Both the position numbers and the translations under genes were made by a program. Below the pieces are notes generated by a model that worked only from the letters and a program-made list of their open reading frames with translations, searched no databases and was not told the origin of the DNA. Positions 32,600 to 40,108 of a DNA stretch of 64,000 nt are shown one piece after another (position 1 is the stretch's first letter; each line of letters begins with the position of its first letter). Source of the DNA: Acidocella sp. (GTDB taxonomy: Bacteria > Pseudomonadota > Alphaproteobacteria > Acetobacterales > Acetobacteraceae); contig JARLIK010000014.1 of assembly GCA_031291755.1 (NCBI GenBank), positions 62,001 through 126,000 on the forward strand, read 5' to 3'.

Positions 32600-32652
32600 G
32601 GCGGCTTAGCGCCGCCACTGGCATATTTTGCTTATGGCGGCTTAGCGCCGCC
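32600..32652. repeat. Repeated hairpin at the end of rne
   Basis: The 17-base hairpin GGCGGC-TTAGC-GCCGCC occurs at 32600-32616 and again at 32636-32652. The second copy contains the rne stop codon and last codons. No T run follows, so it may protect the 3' end of the mRNA rather than terminate. Confidence 0.6.
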
Positions 32653-35416
32653 ACCAGCCCCGCTTCTTATCCGCAACCGGCGCGTCGGCGTCGATGATGG
32701 TCGGCTGCACCACCGGCGCGGGCGGCGTTGCTGCTGCTGGCTCGGCTTCCTGAACCGCGGCTTCCAGAGCTTCAGTAGCCATCATGGCGGCCGGAAGCGC
32801 TTGCGCCTCGCTTATCGGCACACCAGTCATCGCCATTTCGGGCTGCAGCGCCATGCGGGCTGCAGCACGAATTCGGGCGGCTTCCTCTTCGGCGCGTTCC
32901 GCCGCCTCGAAAATATCCGCAACGTCGGCGTAAACCGGCTCCGGCACATAGGCTGGCGGCGCATAGGCCGGTGCCTCCACTGGTGCAGCATCACCCTCAG
33001 AGGCGGGCTTACGGCGGCGGCCCCCGCGTGAGCGGCGGCGGCGGGCCGGTTCTCCCAAGCCATCAGCGGCTTCAGCTTCACCAGCTAAATCCGGCTCGTC
33101 ACCAAGTTCGGCCGCCATTACCAGATCAATCTCGCTTGGCTGGTCATCACCCGGCTCACCAGATTCAGCATCGTCCGCCTCATCATTGGTTTCACCGGCG
33201 GCATTCTGGCCCGACTCGCTGCCCGGCTCAAAACGGCGCTTGCCACGGCGGCGGCGGCGGCGGCGTTTGCGCTCACCTTCCTCGGCCGTCTCGGCGGCAC
33301 CCGTTGCCGTCGCAGCGGTCTCGGTCTCAGCCTCATCCTCGGCCTCATCATCAGGCTCGACGATATCCGGCTGCGGGGTGCGGTTGGTGATCGCCGGGGT
33401 CGCATGATAGGCGGCCGGAGCTGGCATCGGCGCGGTCTGCGCCTTCAGCTTCTCGATCCGGAAGTTCGAGCCGGTCAGGCTGGCGTCGGTCGAGAACAGC
33501 ACCCGCATGGCATAACGGGCCTCAATGGCGGAGAGCCGGTCGCGCTTATGGTTAAACAGATACAGCCCAATCTCGGTCGGCAGCACCACCATGATCTCGG
33601 CAGCACGGAACTTCGCACCCTCATCCTCGATGGCACGCAAAATATGCAGCGCCGCACTTTCCGGACTGCGGATATGGCCCATGCCGGCGCAATGCGGGCA
33701 GGTGATCAGCGAGGCCTCAGCCAGCGAAGGCCGTAGGCGCTGGCGGCTCATCTCCATCAGACCAAAATGGCTGATGTTGCCCACCTGAATCCGAGCCCGG
33801 TCGTTCTTCAGCGAATCCTTCATTTTCCGCTCAACGGCGGCGTTATTCTTGCGGCTCTCCATGTCGATGAAATCGATCACGATCAGCCCGGCCAAATCCC
33901 GCATCCGCACCTGCCGCGCCACTTCCTCGGCGGCTTCCAGGTTGGTGCGCAGCGCGGTGTCCTCGATCGAGCGCTCACGGGTGGAGCGGCCGGAGTTTAC
34001 GTCGATGGCAACCAACGCCTCAGTCTGATTGATCACGATATAGCCGCCCGAGCGCAACTGCACGGTCGGGTTCAGCATCGCATCCAACTGCGCTTCCACC
34101 TGATGCTTGGCGAATAGTGGCTGGCCTTCGGTCCAAAGCTGCACTTTTTTGGCGTTCGCAGGCATCAGCATCCGCATGAAGTCACGCGCCGCGCGGAAGC
34201 CTTCCTCGCCATCCACCAGCACATCATCAACATCGCGGGTATAGACATCGCGGATGGTGCGCTTGATCAGCGAGGCTTCCTCATAAATCAGCGCCGGGGC
34301 GGAGGATTCAAAGGTGCGCTCGCGGATATCATCCCACAACCGCAGTAAATATTCGCAATCGCGCTTGATCTCGGGTTTCGGGCGGTTGGCACCGGCGGTG
34401 CGGACAATCAGCCCCATGCCGGGCGGCACGTCCAGCTCCGCCATCGCTTCCTTCAAGCGGCGGCGGTCCGCCACTGAAGTAATTTTACGCGAAACCCCGC
34501 CACCGGAGGGTGAATTGGGCATCAACACCGAGAACCGGCCAGCCAGCGAGAGGTAAGTGGTAAGTGCTGCCCCCTTATTGCCGCGCTCTTCCTTCACCAC
34601 CTGGATCAGCATGATCTGGCGGCGATGGATCACATCCTGGATTTTATAATTGCGCAGGAAACGCTGGCGCTGACGGCGCTCGCGGGCTTCGGCGGCGTCA
34701 TCGCCGTCACCGCCCAGGCTTTCCGGAGCGGGCGCTTCCGGGGCATCCTCAAAATTCTGCTCAGCGCCGTTGCCGTCGCTCTCACCCTCAACCGGGGCAT
34801 CAGCCGGAGCATCGCTGGCAGCCTCAGCCGCCATGTCTTCAGAGGCTTCCCCTGCGGGTTGCCCGGTAACAGGCGCCTCTGCCGCAGCTTCCTGGAACGC
34901 TGGTTCAACAATCTCGGCCACATAGGCGTCCGCCTCGTCAAACTCCGGTGGAGCCGCGGCGATGATGGCGATCGGCTTGATTTCCAGCGCCTGCGCGGCG
35001 TTGGAATCCGGGGTAAAATCCGCTGCTTCGGCAGAACCCTCCGCCGGGCTTTCAAGGGCCGGTTCAGCCTCTGGTGCCGGGTCGCTCAGCACCTCGGCTT
35101 CGGCTTCAGCTTCGGCCTCATCGTCATCATCCTCGGCCTGCATCGCCAGCAGGCGCTGCCGGTCGGCCAGGGGTATCTGGTAATAATCCGGATGGATTTC
35201 GCCAAACGCCAGGAAGCCATGGCGATTGCCGCCATACTCAACGAACGCCGCCTGCAGGCTGGGTTCGACCCGAATAACCTTGGCTAGATAGATGTTGCCT
35301 TTGATCTGCTTACGGGTTGCGGTTTCAACATCGAAATCCTCAAGCCGGTTGCCATCCAGCACCACAACGCGGGTTTCTTCCGCGTGGCTGGCGTCGATTA
35401 ATATTTTTTTGGTCAT
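32642..35416 (-). CDS. rne: Ribonuclease E with an acidic insertion in the S1 domain
   Basis: A 924-residue endoribonuclease. The N-terminal S1 domain starts normally (ILIDASHAEETRVVV, GNIYLAKVIRVEPSLQAAFVEYGG), is interrupted at about 93-260 by a stretch rich in E, D and A, then resumes at YKIQDVIHRRQIMLIQVVKEERGNKGAAL. The catalytic part has ALVAIDVNSGR and LIVIDFIDM with the metal-binding aspartates, and TCPHC for the zinc link. The C-terminal quarter is disordered, with basic runs (RKRRRRRRGKRR) for RNA binding. It is the core of the RNA degradosome at the membrane. A long leader precedes it. Confidence 0.96.
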   Translation of the reverse strand: MTKKILIDASHAEETRVVVLDGNRLEDFDVETATRKQIKGNIYLAKVIRVEPSLQAAFVEYGGNRHGFLAFGEIHPDYYQIPLADRQRLLAMQAEDDDDEAEAEAEAEVLSDPAPEAEPALESPAEGSAEAADFTPDSNAAQALEIKPIAIIAAAPPEFDEADAYVAEIVEPAFQEAAAEAPVTGQPAGEASEDMAAEAASDAPADAPVEGESDGNGAEQNFEDAPEAPAPESLGGDGDDAAEARERRQRQRFLRNYKIQDVIHRRQIMLIQVVKEERGNKGAALTTYLSLAGRFSVLMPNSPSGGGVSRKITSVADRRRLKEAMAELDVPPGMGLIVRTAGANRPKPEIKRDCEYLLRLWDDIRERTFESSAPALIYEEASLIKRTIRDVYTRDVDDVLVDGEEGFRAARDFMRMLMPANAKKVQLWTEGQPLFAKHQVEAQLDAMLNPTVQLRSGGYIVINQTEALVAIDVNSGRSTRERSIEDTALRTNLEAAEEVARQVRMRDLAGLIVIDFIDMESRKNNAAVERKMKDSLKNDRARIQVGNISHFGLMEMSRQRLRPSLAEASLITCPHCAGMGHIRSPESAALHILRAIEDEGAKFRAAEIMVVLPTEIGLYLFNHKRDRLSAIEARYAMRVLFSTDASLTGSNFRIEKLKAQTAPMPAPAAYHATPAITNRTPQPDIVEPDDEAEDEAETETAATATGAAETAEEGERKRRRRRRRGKRRFEPGSESGQNAAGETNDEADDAESGEPGDDQPSEIDLVMAAELGDEPDLAGEAEAADGLGEPARRRRSRGGRRRKPASEGDAAPVEAPAYAPPAYVPEPVYADVADIFEAAERAEEEAARIRAAARMALQPEMAMTGVPISEAQALPAAMMATEALEAAVQEAEPAAATPPAPVVQPTIIDADAPVADKKRGWWRR

Positions 35417-35832
35417 TGAAAGATAAGCTCCGAGATGCCGGCCCCGGCTCTGCGCGGTTCAACGCGGCAGCCTGGCGGCAAAAATTAAGTGAAAGATGGG
35501 GTTGGAGGGACCGGAGCCACGCCATGCCAAAGCTGATAAAAGAGAATTCAGTAAGGCGAGCGGTCATCGGTCCTTGTATTTCGTTGGACAGATTTGTCGA
35601 ACCTGTCCGTTTAAGTAATTGGCAGGGTTTGTGCGGCTGTTTTGGCCAAATTTGGCCGGAAACGCGCAGGTTCAAACACCTGTGGATTGTGATGACCCAA
35701 ATAACCCCCCGGTGCAAGGGGGTTGTTGAGCCGGGCCGATTCACGCAACCATAAGCGAAATGCCGACAATTCAGGATATATTGAGACCATGCGCCTGTTG
35801 AGCCCCATATCTAACAGAGATTTAAGGCAGCC
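35417..35832. other. 416-base divergent intergenic region, including the rne leader
   Basis: No convincing open frame or RNA gene is seen. rne usually carries a long 5' untranslated region through which RNase E controls its own mRNA, and this space allows one. A hairpin-like AACCCCCC-GGTGC-AAGGGGGTT lies at about 35703-35724. The GCAGGTTCAAACACCTG near 35668 looks a little like a tRNA T-arm, but no acceptor or anticodon stem surrounds it. Promoters for rne and the rightward glycosyltransferase must lie here. Confidence 0.5.
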
Positions 35833-37857
35833 ATGACGCCCCAGTACCGCTTCTCAATCGTCGCCTGCGCCCGCTGGGAGACGCGATATATAACAGAATG
35901 GCTGACCTATTACCGAATGATCGGGTTCGATCATGTTTTTCTCTACTGCAATGACGACGACCCCACCGAGCTATACCGCGAGGTGCTGCCCTTCACGCTG
36001 GGGCCGCAACCGTTCGTAACCTTTCGCTACCACCCGCACCAAGGCCAACAGGTGCAAATGTACGGGCATTTTTTGAAAACCAGCCTGGACAAGACGGAAT
36101 GGGTAAGCTTTTTCGACATTGATGAGTTTTTGCGCCTGCCACTGGGGCAAACCATCGCACAGTTCATGGACCAGTTCGACCCATCTGTTGACTGCGTATT
36201 GTTTAACTGGATTTTCTTCGGGCCTAACGGGCACAAAACCCCGCCAAACGGCAGCGTGTTGGAAAATTTTACGAGACGAGATGCGGCGCTGCATCCGCTG
36301 ACAAAATACGTGGCTCGAGCATCCGCCTTCACCGGCGATCGGCTTTTTGACCTATTTGATGGACATGGGTTCTGGCATGCACTTGTTGGCAAAGTGGCCA
36401 CCTCGGTTAAAGAGGTCAACGTGCTTGGCGAAGATATGCAGACTTATTATCAGAATTTCCCTGAGCAGGCGACCACCTTCATCAACCATACCGACCGTCA
36501 CGACCGACTTTTGGCAACAGCAATGGTCCACCATTACGCGTTCCGCTCTGAGCAGGCATTCTGGGAGCGCTCCGCGCGTGGTTTGCTTGGAGCATTTGGT
36601 GGCCAATCTATGTGGCAGCGATTGGCCGAGGGCGATCAGTTTGAAAACTACCTTGCCAGCATATCAAGAGTTTCTGATATCAGCCTGGCGTCATTCTGGA
36701 AAAATATCGAACTAACCGCATGGGGTACAAATATCGTTCCGCAGACGACAGGTTGGCCGTTCAGCCGGGGCAAGCCAGCCACACAAAGTTCTGTTTGCGA
36801 ATGGTCGTTCGCGCCGGCCGTGGAGCGCGACGCGAGCGGCGCTGTGAACGGCAAGATAGATGGCTTCAGAAAATTCCATACTGGGTTCGAGACAAATCCC
36901 TGGTGGCAAGTTGATTTAGAAAATACCGCCACCATCAGGCGGATTAAAATTTTCAATACAACTGATGAGACGGCATCACGCTTTAAAGATTTCAGTCTTG
37001 CCGTTTCAATTGATGGTGATATCTGGGCGGAAATTTCGCGCAAGGACGATGGCATAACCGTAGGTAACTTAAATACAACGCCTTATATATGGGAAGGCCA
37101 AACACCCGCCTGGGGACGCTATGTGCGGATTACAGCTCTCGGCGAAAACATTTGCCTGCATCTGGATCAGGTTGAAGTTTATGCTGATAATGTCGTACCC
37201 GCGGAGCAAGGCCCCGGCGCGGATACGACCATCGTGATTACATCATGCAACCGACACGATCTTCTTGAAAAGACACTGAAATCGCTGGTGCATTATAATA
37301 CCTATGAGGGTGTGAGAGAGATTTTGGTTGTTGAAGATGGCGATGCTGACCCGGCTGATATTTGTGCCCGGTACGGCGCGAGGTTGATTTGTCTCGGCGA
37401 ACGAAAAGGTCAATTATATGCCATTGATATCGCCTATTCCCATGTAAAAACGCCTTATATTTTTCATTGCGAAGATGACTGGGAGTTTTATAAACCAGGA
37501 TTCATTGAAAAAAGTCTGATCGTTTTAAAAGGCGATGAAGCCTGCGTGTGTGTTTGGCTGCGCGCATGGGACGATACAAATGGCCACCCTTTATCTTTTA
37601 AATCACCGGATAAAAATTTTGGCGTTTTGAGTTTCGATTATTCAGGAACATGGCATGGATTTTCATGGAACCCAGGCTTGCGGCGGAAATCTGACTATGA
37701 ACGAGTGGGGCCATTTTCTCATATTTTGAATCACCACGGCGATTTAGGAGAACCCATGGTCAGCACGCTGTATCGCGACCTTGGATATCATGCGGTGATC
37801 CTCGACGAAACCGGCTATGTTCGCCACACTGGCTGGGAGCGGCATGTTTCTGCTTAA
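35833..37857 (+). CDS. Three-module protein: GT92-like glycosyltransferase, discoidin domain, GT2-like glycosyltransferase
   Basis: A 674-residue protein without signal peptide or membrane span. Residues 1 to about 250 resemble the GT92/DUF23 group: CARWETRYITEWLTYYRMIGFDHVFLYCNDD, then FFDIDEFLRLP with a DxD-type acidic motif near 95. Residues about 312-455 form a discoidin (F5/8 type C) fold: GKPATQSS, a WWQVDLENTATIRRIKIFN core, and YVRITALGENICLHLDQVEVYAD. From about 464, TTIVITSCNRHDLLEKTLKSL, VEDGDADP and HCEDDWEFY make a family 2-like transferase. It stands alone between rne and glcB; the last third is AT-rich. The glycan and the acceptor are unknown. Confidence 0.8.
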   Translation: MTPQYRFSIVACARWETRYITEWLTYYRMIGFDHVFLYCNDDDPTELYREVLPFTLGPQPFVTFRYHPHQGQQVQMYGHFLKTSLDKTEWVSFFDIDEFLRLPLGQTIAQFMDQFDPSVDCVLFNWIFFGPNGHKTPPNGSVLENFTRRDAALHPLTKYVARASAFTGDRLFDLFDGHGFWHALVGKVATSVKEVNVLGEDMQTYYQNFPEQATTFINHTDRHDRLLATAMVHHYAFRSEQAFWERSARGLLGAFGGQSMWQRLAEGDQFENYLASISRVSDISLASFWKNIELTAWGTNIVPQTTGWPFSRGKPATQSSVCEWSFAPAVERDASGAVNGKIDGFRKFHTGFETNPWWQVDLENTATIRRIKIFNTTDETASRFKDFSLAVSIDGDIWAEISRKDDGITVGNLNTTPYIWEGQTPAWGRYVRITALGENICLHLDQVEVYADNVVPAEQGPGADTTIVITSCNRHDLLEKTLKSLVHYNTYEGVREILVVEDGDADPADICARYGARLICLGERKGQLYAIDIAYSHVKTPYIFHCEDDWEFYKPGFIEKSLIVLKGDEACVCVWLRAWDDTNGHPLSFKSPDKNFGVLSFDYSGTWHGFSWNPGLRRKSDYERVGPFSHILNHHGDLGEPMVSTLYRDLGYHAVILDETGYVRHTGWERHVSA

Positions 37858-37942: not shown

Positions 37943-40108
37943 ATGACCGAAGCTCGGACCACGCACGCCACTTTGAACATCGCCACGGTGCTGCATGATT
38001 TCATCGTCAATGAGGCCCTGCCCGGCACCGGGCTCGAAGCCGCCGCCTTCTGGGAGGGCCTGGCCAAATTGCTGACCGAATTCGCCCCGCGCAACGCCGC
38101 CCTGATGGCCAAGCGCGATGCCATCCAGGCGCAGATCGACGCCTGGTACAAGGAACATAAGGGCAAGGCGCTGGAGCAGGCCGAATATCAGGCATTCCTC
38201 ACCAGCATCGGCTATCTGGTGCCGGTACCTGCCGACGTGGCAGTGGCAACTGACCGGGTGGACGACGAAATTGCTCTCATCGCCGGGCCGCAACTGGTGG
38301 TGCCGGTAAGCAACGCCCGCTACGCGCTGAACGCCGCCAATGCCCGCTGGGGCAGCTTGTATGACGCGCTTTACGGCACCGATGCGATCTCGGACGCCGA
38401 TGGCGCGGCTCGTGGCACTGGCTACAACAAAATTCGCGGCACCAAAGTCGTCGCCCGTGGCCGTGCCTTTCTGGATGCCAATTTTGCGCTGGCCACCGGC
38501 AGCCATGCCGATGCCACCGCCTACCGAGTGAAAAACGGCCATCTGGCCGTGACCCTGCCGAGCGGCGAAACCGGCCTGAAGGATGCCGCGAAATTCGCCG
38601 GCTACACCGGCGAGCCCACCCAGCCCACCGCCATTTTGCTGAAAAATCATAATCTGCATGCTGAGATCGTCATCAACCCGGCCAGCGCCACCGGCAAGGA
38701 CGATGCGGCGGGTGTGGCCGATATCATTCTGGAATCCGCCATCAGCACCATCATGGACTGCGAGGACAGCGTGGCCGCCGTGGATGCCGAGGACAAGGTG
38801 GAAGTGTACCGCAACTGGCTGGGGCTGATGAACGGCACCCTCTCCGCCCCGGTGCAGAAGGGCGGCAAGACCTTCGAGCGCAAGCTGAACGCCGACCGCG
38901 TTTACACCGCCCCGAACGGCGGCACGCTCACCGTAGCTGGGCGCTCACTGATGCTGGTGCGCAATGTCGGTCACCATATGCTGTCGGATGCGATTTTAAC
39001 CGCTGACGGCAAGCAAGTTCCGGAAACCGTGCTCGACGCCGTGTTCACTTCGCTGATCGCGATGCATGATTTGAAGTCCACGGGTGGGATGAAAAATTCC
39101 CGCAAGGGTTCCATCTACATCGTCAAACCCAAACTGCACGGCCCGGAAGAAGTGGCGTTTGCCAACGAACTATTCGGCGCGGTGGAAAAACTCCTCGGCC
39201 TGCCCGCCAACACCATGAAAATGGGCATCATGGATGAAGAACGCCGCACCAGCGCCAACCTCAAAGCCTGCATCGAGGCTGCCAAAAACCGTGTGGTGTT
39301 CATCAACACCGGCTTCCTGGATCGCACCGGCGATGAAATCCACACCTCGATGGTGGCGGGCCCGATGGTGCGCAAGGCCGAGATTAAAAACAGCGCCTGG
39401 ATCAAGGCGTACGAGGACCGCAATGTGGATTACGGCCTGGAGTGCGGCCTGCAAGGCAAGGCGCAGATCGGCAAGGGCATGTGGGCCGCCCCCGATGATA
39501 TGGCCGCCATGCTGGAGCAGAAAATCGCCCATCCGCGCGCCGGCGCCAATACCGCCTGGGTGCCTTCACCCACCGCCGCCACTTTGCATGCCACGCACTA
39601 CCACGCGGTTGATGTCGCTGCCCGGCAGATGGAATTAAAAGACCGCGCACCGGCAAAGCTTGCCGAGCTGCTGACCCCGCCGCTGGCGGACCGGCCAAAC
39701 TGGATTCCGGCTGATGTGCAGCAGGAGTTGGACAACAACTGCCAGAGCCTGCTGGGCTATGTGGTGCGCTGGATCGACCAGGGCGTTGGCTGCTCGAAAG
39801 TGCCGGATATTCACAATGTGGAATTGATGGAAGACCGCGCCACGCTGCGAATTTCCTCCCAGCACATCGCCAACTGGCTGCTGCATGGCATCACCACTGA
39901 GGCACAAGTGATGGAAACCTTGAAGCGCATGGCGCTGGTGGTGGATAAGCAAAACGCCGGTGATGCCGCCTACACCCCGATGGCGCCTGGCTATGACGGT
40001 ATCGCTTTCAAAGCCGCATGCGACTTGATCTTCAAGGGCCTGACCCAGCCCAACGGCTATACCGAGTTCATCCTCACCCAACGCCGCCGCGAAGCCAAGG
40101 CCGGGTAA
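37943..40108 (+). CDS. glcB: Malate synthase G
   Basis: A 721-residue enzyme of the long, single-chain malate synthase class. Conserved segments include [18 protein letters not shown], the [16 protein letters not shown] catalytic region, the glyoxylate/Mg site around [19 protein letters not shown] and the C-terminal [17 protein letters not shown]. It condenses glyoxylate with acetyl-CoA to malate, allowing growth on C2 compounds and fatty acids, which fits the beta-oxidation genes later in the window. No isocitrate lyase gene is present here. GGAG precedes the ATG. Confidence 0.97.

Follow-up and report, generated by a model that had tools for sequence, protein, structure and literature searches.

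Shuffled glycosyltransferase modules in one gene between rne and glcB of Acidocella: a possible source of glycan variation

A 64,000-nucleotide stretch of Acidocella sp. DNA (contig JARLIK010000014.1, positions 62,001 to 126,000), referred to here as the window, carries between rne and glcB a gene for a 674-residue protein in which a discoidin-like fold separates two parts resembling different glycosyltransferases. What kind of enzyme is this, and is its gene a solitary acquisition or something that the genus shares? The interval between rne and glcB is called the slot below, and the features of the locus are collected in Table 1. With a little more confidence than doubt, we read the gene as one of the alleles of a locus at which a single glycosyltransferase gene has its modules shuffled; it would encode a soluble enzyme with two GT-A sites and a middle module, D, that would dock the glycan.

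Table 1. Features of the rne-glcB slot in the window (window coordinates)
Feature	Position	Strand	Basis or remark
rne (Rne/Rng family ribonuclease), left slot border	32642..35416	-	TIGR00757, 513 bits (cut-off 326)
Conserved leader, rne start to cassette	35417..35718	+	302 bases, 93% shared with G031
Modular glycosyltransferase, module order A-D-C, 674 aa	35833..37857	+	ORF, Pfam, AlphaFold2
Codons 1-44, protein identical to G017	35833..35964	+	alignment
Module A, GT92-like (PF13704/PF01697), residues 4-289	35842..36699	+	Pfam, profiles, fold search
Codons 45-306, replaced segment, synonymous divergence from G017 saturated, flanks close	35965..36750	+	alignment, AU test
DxD motif of module A (D95-I96-D97)	36115..36123	+	D95 and D97 in 24/24 aligned A rows
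Module D, F-type lectin/discoidin fold, residues 310-451	36760..37185	+	Pfam, phmmer, profiles, Foldseek
F-type-lectin motif positions in D: H349, T376 (motif: Arg), D378, R383	36877..36981	+	aligned rows; motif from the available part of PMC5712786
Module C, GT2 (PF00535), residues 463-672	37219..37848	+	Pfam, profiles
E547-D548-D549 metal-site motif of module C	37471..37479	+	42/42 aligned C rows
glcB (malate synthase G), right slot border	37943..40108	+	TIGR01345, 1108 bits (cut-off 989)

First, the domains of the protein were analyzed. The reading frame contains no internal stop and encodes a single chain. Module A matched two Pfam families, PF13704 Glyco_tranf_2_4 (2.7e-14, 53.9 bits against a cut-off of 27.5, residues 14-110) and PF01697 GT92 (1.9e-07, 31.4 bits against a cut-off of 23, residues 18-186). 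Module D matched PF00754 F5/8C above the curated cut-off (9.3e-15, residues 333-438), and module C matched PF00535 GT2 (9.6e-12, 45.6 bits against a cut-off of 23.3, residues 466-621). The protein was also modeled with AlphaFold2 from 65 aligned sequences, which were picked from 146 dereplicated module stretches. The model had a mean pLDDT of 89.5 and a pTM of 0.55; the modules are predicted to be well folded, but at this pTM their mutual arrangement is uncertain. In Foldseek searches the transferase parts fell among GT-A enzymes, namely GlfT2, K4CP chondroitin polymerase, heparosan synthase 2, B4GALNT1, GalS1 (GT92) and GalNAc-T2, and module D fell among F-type lectins and CBM47 (3lei, 2j1t and 1k12), with TM scores by target length of 0.71-0.83, the best being that of 3lei (0.83). 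By sequence, phmmer placed D closest, among solved structures, to the platelet aggregation factor lectin domain (3le0, 6.2e-11) and to fucolectin-related proteins. An earlier reading made from the sequence alone (the sequence-only reading) had proposed two different transferase modules on either side of a discoidin fold, and the Pfam and fold matches bear this out. The same reading had seen no membrane span, in agreement with a highest 19-residue Kyte-Doolittle mean of 1.02.

The active sites point in the same direction. The model, the fold search and the aligned rows give module A a GT-A fold with a DxD motif, and E98, directly after this motif, was present in all 24 aligned A rows, like D95 and D97. 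Module C joins its PF00535 match to an acidic metal motif, and its H665 was present in 41 of the 42 aligned C rows. By Pfam, AlphaFold2 and motifs, two complete GT modules are thus present in one chain. Homologues in which one of the modules lacks its catalytic residues had been named as the result that would speak against a two-site enzyme; the acidic motifs were intact in every aligned row of A and of C. Both modules are accordingly intact by motif, and each may be an active transferase. Base composition was also compared along the gene. Its last third had been described as AT-rich, which was confirmed: the GC content was 0.526 in A, 0.495 in D and 0.466 in C, in comparison with 0.616 in glcB and 0.597 in the window. 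A scan for promoters and terminators added nothing firm, and a search for repeats within the window's slot found only short imperfect pairs of 16-20 nt without clear meaning.

We surveyed the slot in 38 Acidocella genomes, one genome per species and many of them drafts. The slot could be mapped in 35, on both sides in 28 and on one side in 7; an anchored slot was not found in the other three (G018, G027 and G036). Slot length ranged from 456 to 3881 bp. A co-oriented modular glycosyltransferase gene occupied 22 of the 28 spanned slots, including one gene split by a stop (G034). Three spanned slots held a lone GT2 module (E) on the reverse strand (G007, G020 and G031), two were empty (G019 and G028, 456-488 bp), and one held a decayed E-M gene in pieces (G003). 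These six empty, reverse-strand and decayed slots indicate that the product is dispensable. The gene had been read as an orphan acquired in isolation, a view that could not be kept, since most of the Acidocella genomes surveyed have an occupied slot.

The left side of the slot begins with a leader that is shared even where the contents differ; G031 holds a different gene behind it. A GCAAG core was present in 31 of 31 aligned leaders, those of empty slots among them, and conservation of the leader stopped about 302-317 bases from the rne start. Site-specific recombination at this border was considered and set aside: the leader abuts rne and persists in empty slots, and selection on the upstream region of rne explains it as well. 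No recombinase or integrase was found in Pfam scans of the slot ORFs, which covered all but some small ORFs, and no glycan-export or sugar-nucleotide gene was recognised within the slot. Outside the genus, rne was not found beside glcB in any of 27 loci with flanks of up to about 1.5 kb (0.17 kb upstream in one). Neither rne nor any of the modules was found upstream of glcB in any of 20 longer stretches reaching 3.3-9 kb upstream (17 stretches of about 9 kb and one each of 8.4, 8.0 and 3.6 kb, with the glcB start included). The arrangement therefore looks genus-specific.

The contents of the slot were classified with profiles built in this analysis into nine module types, with B and K separated by single-sequence seeds. 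Modules A, B and K are GT92-like, E and C are GT2, Y is GT61, D is the discoidin module, and M is an FkbM methyltransferase, full or short. For W, a model of the W-K-M protein had a mean pLDDT of 61.8 and matched GlyE, LARGE1 and a GT8 protein in fold, a weak hint that W is GT8-like. An uninterrupted slot ORF was present in 25 genomes, one of which (G011) begins where its contig does and may be incomplete; outside this set stand the split gene of G034, the contig-end cuts of G001, G008 and G025, and the six slots without an intact co-oriented gene. The 25 ORFs showed 19 module orders. Only A-D (five genomes), A-D-C (two, the window and G017) and B-E-D (two) occurred more than once. The orders found once were, with D, A-B-D-C, Y-A-D, Y-B-A-D, B-A-A-D, A-E-D (the allele of G009), W-E-D and W-D, and, with M, A-K-M, A-W-K-M, W-K-M, B-K-M-M, B-K-M, A-B-K-M, B-E-M, B-Y-M and E-M. 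D was present in 16 of the 25 ORFs and M in 9, and the two never occurred together; K was followed by M in 6 of 6 cases, as it was in the split G034 gene. When the 22 slot states, one of them (G001) cut by a contig end, were placed on a glcB tree of 32 rows, at least 23 changes were required, where the floor for 22 states is 21.

A general integration hotspot, in which the glycosyltransferases would be passengers acquired one at a time, could also give a slot of such variable length, with two empty examples and three carrying a reverse-strand gene. We consider this quite improbable, because all 33 non-empty slots among the 35 hold members of the same nine-module family (three lone reverse E, one decayed gene and several contig-end cuts included), and the Pfam scans described above showed no integrase.

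How the orders change was seen in close pairs of genomes. G010 (A-D) and G009 (A-E-D) are 95% identical through the end of A, and E is present in only one of them; G030 (A-W-K-M) and G026 (A-K-M) differ by W; and G010 (A-D) and G002 (B-E-D) differ in order at 96.6% glcB identity. Three close pairs, G010/G022, G007/G020 and G011/G034, showed no module change, the last pair being a stop apart.

The window's own gene was compared with that of its nearest relative, G017, which has the same module order. The identity was 96% in glcB, 91% in D and 93% in C, but 49% in A. It drops after residue 44 and recovers where D begins, and the bounds of the divergent segment were set from this alignment. The number of synonymous differences per site (pS) was 0.36 in codons 1-44, 0.855 in codons 45-306, 0.31 in D-C and 0.30 in glcB, and overall values of 0.14-0.44 were obtained for 11 other genes, glcB and rne included, that the two genomes have in common within these 22 kb. 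Within rne (32642-35416), a gapped, acidic, low-complexity part differs strongly from G017, with a pS of up to 0.75, the only other high value along this region. In a tree of 25 A modules, the A of G017 grouped, at a long distance, with a non-slot A-D gene of G004 (L201; support 100/99), and the AU test rejected a single clade of the window A and the G017 A (p 0.00017). The divergence of A, the jump in pS and the AU test together show that a segment was replaced within an otherwise inherited gene. A donor of the window's segment was not found; L201 was considered because of its grouping with the A of G017, and it is too distant to be one. The window's own genome contains two further PF13704 matches, one of them below the cut-off. 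The recombination route may most simply have been homologous, with related alleles or paralogues as partners.

Mosaics of this kind could in principle be produced by metagenome assembly, through the joining of alleles from different species. Several genomes are drafts, that of the window included (83.67% complete), and G017, G006 and G022 appear to be MAGs. However, the ORFs are open and in frame over the joins, both flanks of the replaced segment fit the glcB divergence, and modular slots are also present in G037 (50 contigs) and in G009, apparently an isolate. A pattern that is in frame, repeated over many genomes and consistent with flank divergence makes assembly error unlikely, and we give this explanation hardly any weight.

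Next, the putative sugar site of module D was examined. The fucose motif of F-type lectins is H-Xn-RXD-X4-(R/K), as given in the available part of the source (PMC5712786); D has the discoidin/F-type fold and keeps three of these four residues, with one Arg replaced by Thr376. Of 21 aligned D rows, 20 had His349, 17 had Asp378 and 20 had Arg383. Position 376 was Thr in 15 rows, which are all 15 rows from slot proteins (13) and from a second D-C locus described below (2). It was Arg in five (L194, L195, L197, L199 and L205) and Asp in one (L206); these six are all non-slot A-D proteins of the family, so that 5 of 6 such relatives carry the Arg. The lectin site thus differs in the lineage of the rne-glcB locus. 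We class D by its F-type fold, without calling it a fucose lectin or taking fucose binding for granted. From the residues kept, a sugar site is plausible, though altered.

This bears on whether D handles a sugar at all. It might be a structural spacer or an oligomerisation module without sugar binding, the protein being two fused transferases and the module turnover neutral domain drift. The uniform Thr at position 376 in the slot lineage would fit such a role, as would the loss of the first third of D, His included, in 4 of 16 slot D modules (G002, G009, G033 and G035), which suggests that the D site is not needed in every allele. We nevertheless doubt this explanation, given how widely His349, Arg383 and Asp378 are retained, the Arg at 376 in most non-slot relatives, and a dN/dS of 0.14 for D. 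Measured between the window and G017, dN/dS was 0.10 for C and 0.12 for D-C together, and by this ratio both D and C are under purifying selection.

Relatives of the modules were also found outside the slot. Two Acidocella genomes, G022 and G009, carry at a second locus a D-C protein without A (L186:9995-11263 and L189:9351-10502). This gene adjoins a gene for a YiaD-type OmpA-like lipoprotein, and another neighbour is presumably a glycosyltransferase-like gene. The second-locus proteins were 65-66% identical to the window in D and 71-73% in C. The A-B-D-C slot protein of G006 was 73% identical in D and 72% in C, and the D modules of slot proteins outside the group of the window, G017 and G006 were at most 61% identical to that of the window. 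From these identities, D-C may have moved between the slot and the second locus, in either direction. Neither D nor C was found at the second locus in the stretches taken from G002 and G016, and the contig of G010 ends there.

Beyond the genus, a gene of G051 (L194:1490-4324) has the order A-D-GT61, which indicates that the module family has been shuffled beyond the rne-glcB locus. In G057, of another genus of the same bacterial family, a methyltransferase domain is followed by a D-type discoidin module (L209:238-1341). In G050, three tandem proteins adjoining galE each carry a D-type module (L213:6461-10488), and the N-terminal half of the one scanned had no Pfam match. Four further proteins of 466-520 aa (L208, L210, L211 and L212) have D at the C-terminus of a long N-terminal region, without a Pfam match in L208, L211 and L212. 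Viral contigs yielded 122 relatives, of which 80 loci (L101-L180) were kept, matching mainly C; phages may carry this type of GT2. The idea that the architecture as a whole came from a phage or a plasmid was rejected, because none of the 98 plasmid and 11 phage records with a match covered 80% of the query.

The neighbours of C relatives were used as a lead to the product. Both hldE and a Kdo transferase gene lie near such a relative in a Pseudomonas locus (L044), where msbA is also close by, and in a Shewanella locus (L029). Judged from an example sequence of each family, hldE-like families recurred in 42 and msbA-like families in 35 of the 76 loci compared. This LPS-core neighbourhood makes an LPS oligosaccharide a lead and not a test. 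The enzyme might alternatively work in the cytoplasm on a protein, such as a flagellin or a surface-layer protein, in place of a lipid-linked or polysaccharide glycan, with D recognising the glycoprotein product, as the lectin domain of GalNAc-transferases does. The fold matches include GalNAc-T2 and further protein glycosyltransferases, the enzyme is predicted to be soluble, and a single gene without export partners would be enough. However, GT-A folds match broadly, which makes matches of the GalNAc-T2 type weak, C relatives stand in LPS-core neighbourhoods, and no acceptor protein is known; protein glycosylation seems unlikely to us.

The protein is most likely a soluble glycosyltransferase with two sites, and its set of modules would determine the structure of a variable, probably surface, glycan, for example an LPS oligosaccharide. 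Module A (GT92-like) and module C (GT2) would each add a sugar, and different ones, with D between them docking the acceptor glycan or the growing product. Modules would be swapped, inserted or removed in frame by recombination between related alleles or paralogues, and different species would come to make different glycans out of one gene, as capsule and O-antigen loci do with many genes. D and M exclude each other, and both stand at the C-terminus or close to it, which suggests that they are alternative means of holding or terminating the product. In a wider form, on which we stand evenly divided, the slot would compress a serotype locus into one ORF. Throughout the genus, the gene at this site would be reassembled again and again out of exchangeable catalytic modules and one late module, either D or M, and in-frame exchange would set the glycan structure under pressure from phages or grazers.

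Among open-licence PMC papers, none found by title dealt with a modular glycosyltransferase slot in Acidocella or with a GT92-discoidin fusion. Bacterial glycan diversity is usually put down to the swapping of multi-gene loci. In Acidocella the exchange of modules within one gene, at one site, seems to have this effect, which suggests that these bacteria vary a glycan by trading parts of that gene. The 19 natural module orders in open frames would provide a testable system of combinable GT modules, in which order can be set against glycan structure, and natural linkers for the construction of multi-site glycosyltransferases. The locus also offers a test of the F-type lectin fold as an acceptor dock inside a transferase.

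The protein and its locus were compared with known systems. GalNAc-transferases join a GT27 transferase to a ricin-type lectin that steers acceptor choice, and act in the animal Golgi. A transferase with an attached lectin fold is common to them and the Acidocella protein, while the ricin-type fold and the single transferase are features of the GalNAc-transferases. K4CP and heparosan synthase 2, both among the fold matches, are two-site glycosaminoglycan polymerases of fixed architecture encoded in capsule loci. Like the Acidocella protein they carry two GT-A modules in one bacterial chain, but they have no lectin module between the sites, where the Acidocella protein has one. The plant beta-1,4-galactan synthase GalS1 (CBM95 and GT92; PDB 8d3t), as described in the available part of its publication (PMC11062476), sets a precedent for the fusion of GT92 with a sugar-binding module. 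There too a GT92 GT-A fold and a sugar-binding module share one chain, but, as far as that part of the account goes, the CBM95 is N-terminal and not F-type, and a single transferase is present with no second GT2 module. F-type lectins and CBM47 share with D the fold and three of the four motif residues; D differs in its Thr for one Arg and in its place within a predicted cytoplasmic enzyme. In type I restriction hsdS genes and in capsule and O-antigen loci, specificity segments are exchanged between conserved flanks. The rne-glcB slot has conserved flanks likewise, but the segments exchanged there are entire enzyme modules, or the greater part of one, within a single glycosyltransferase ORF.
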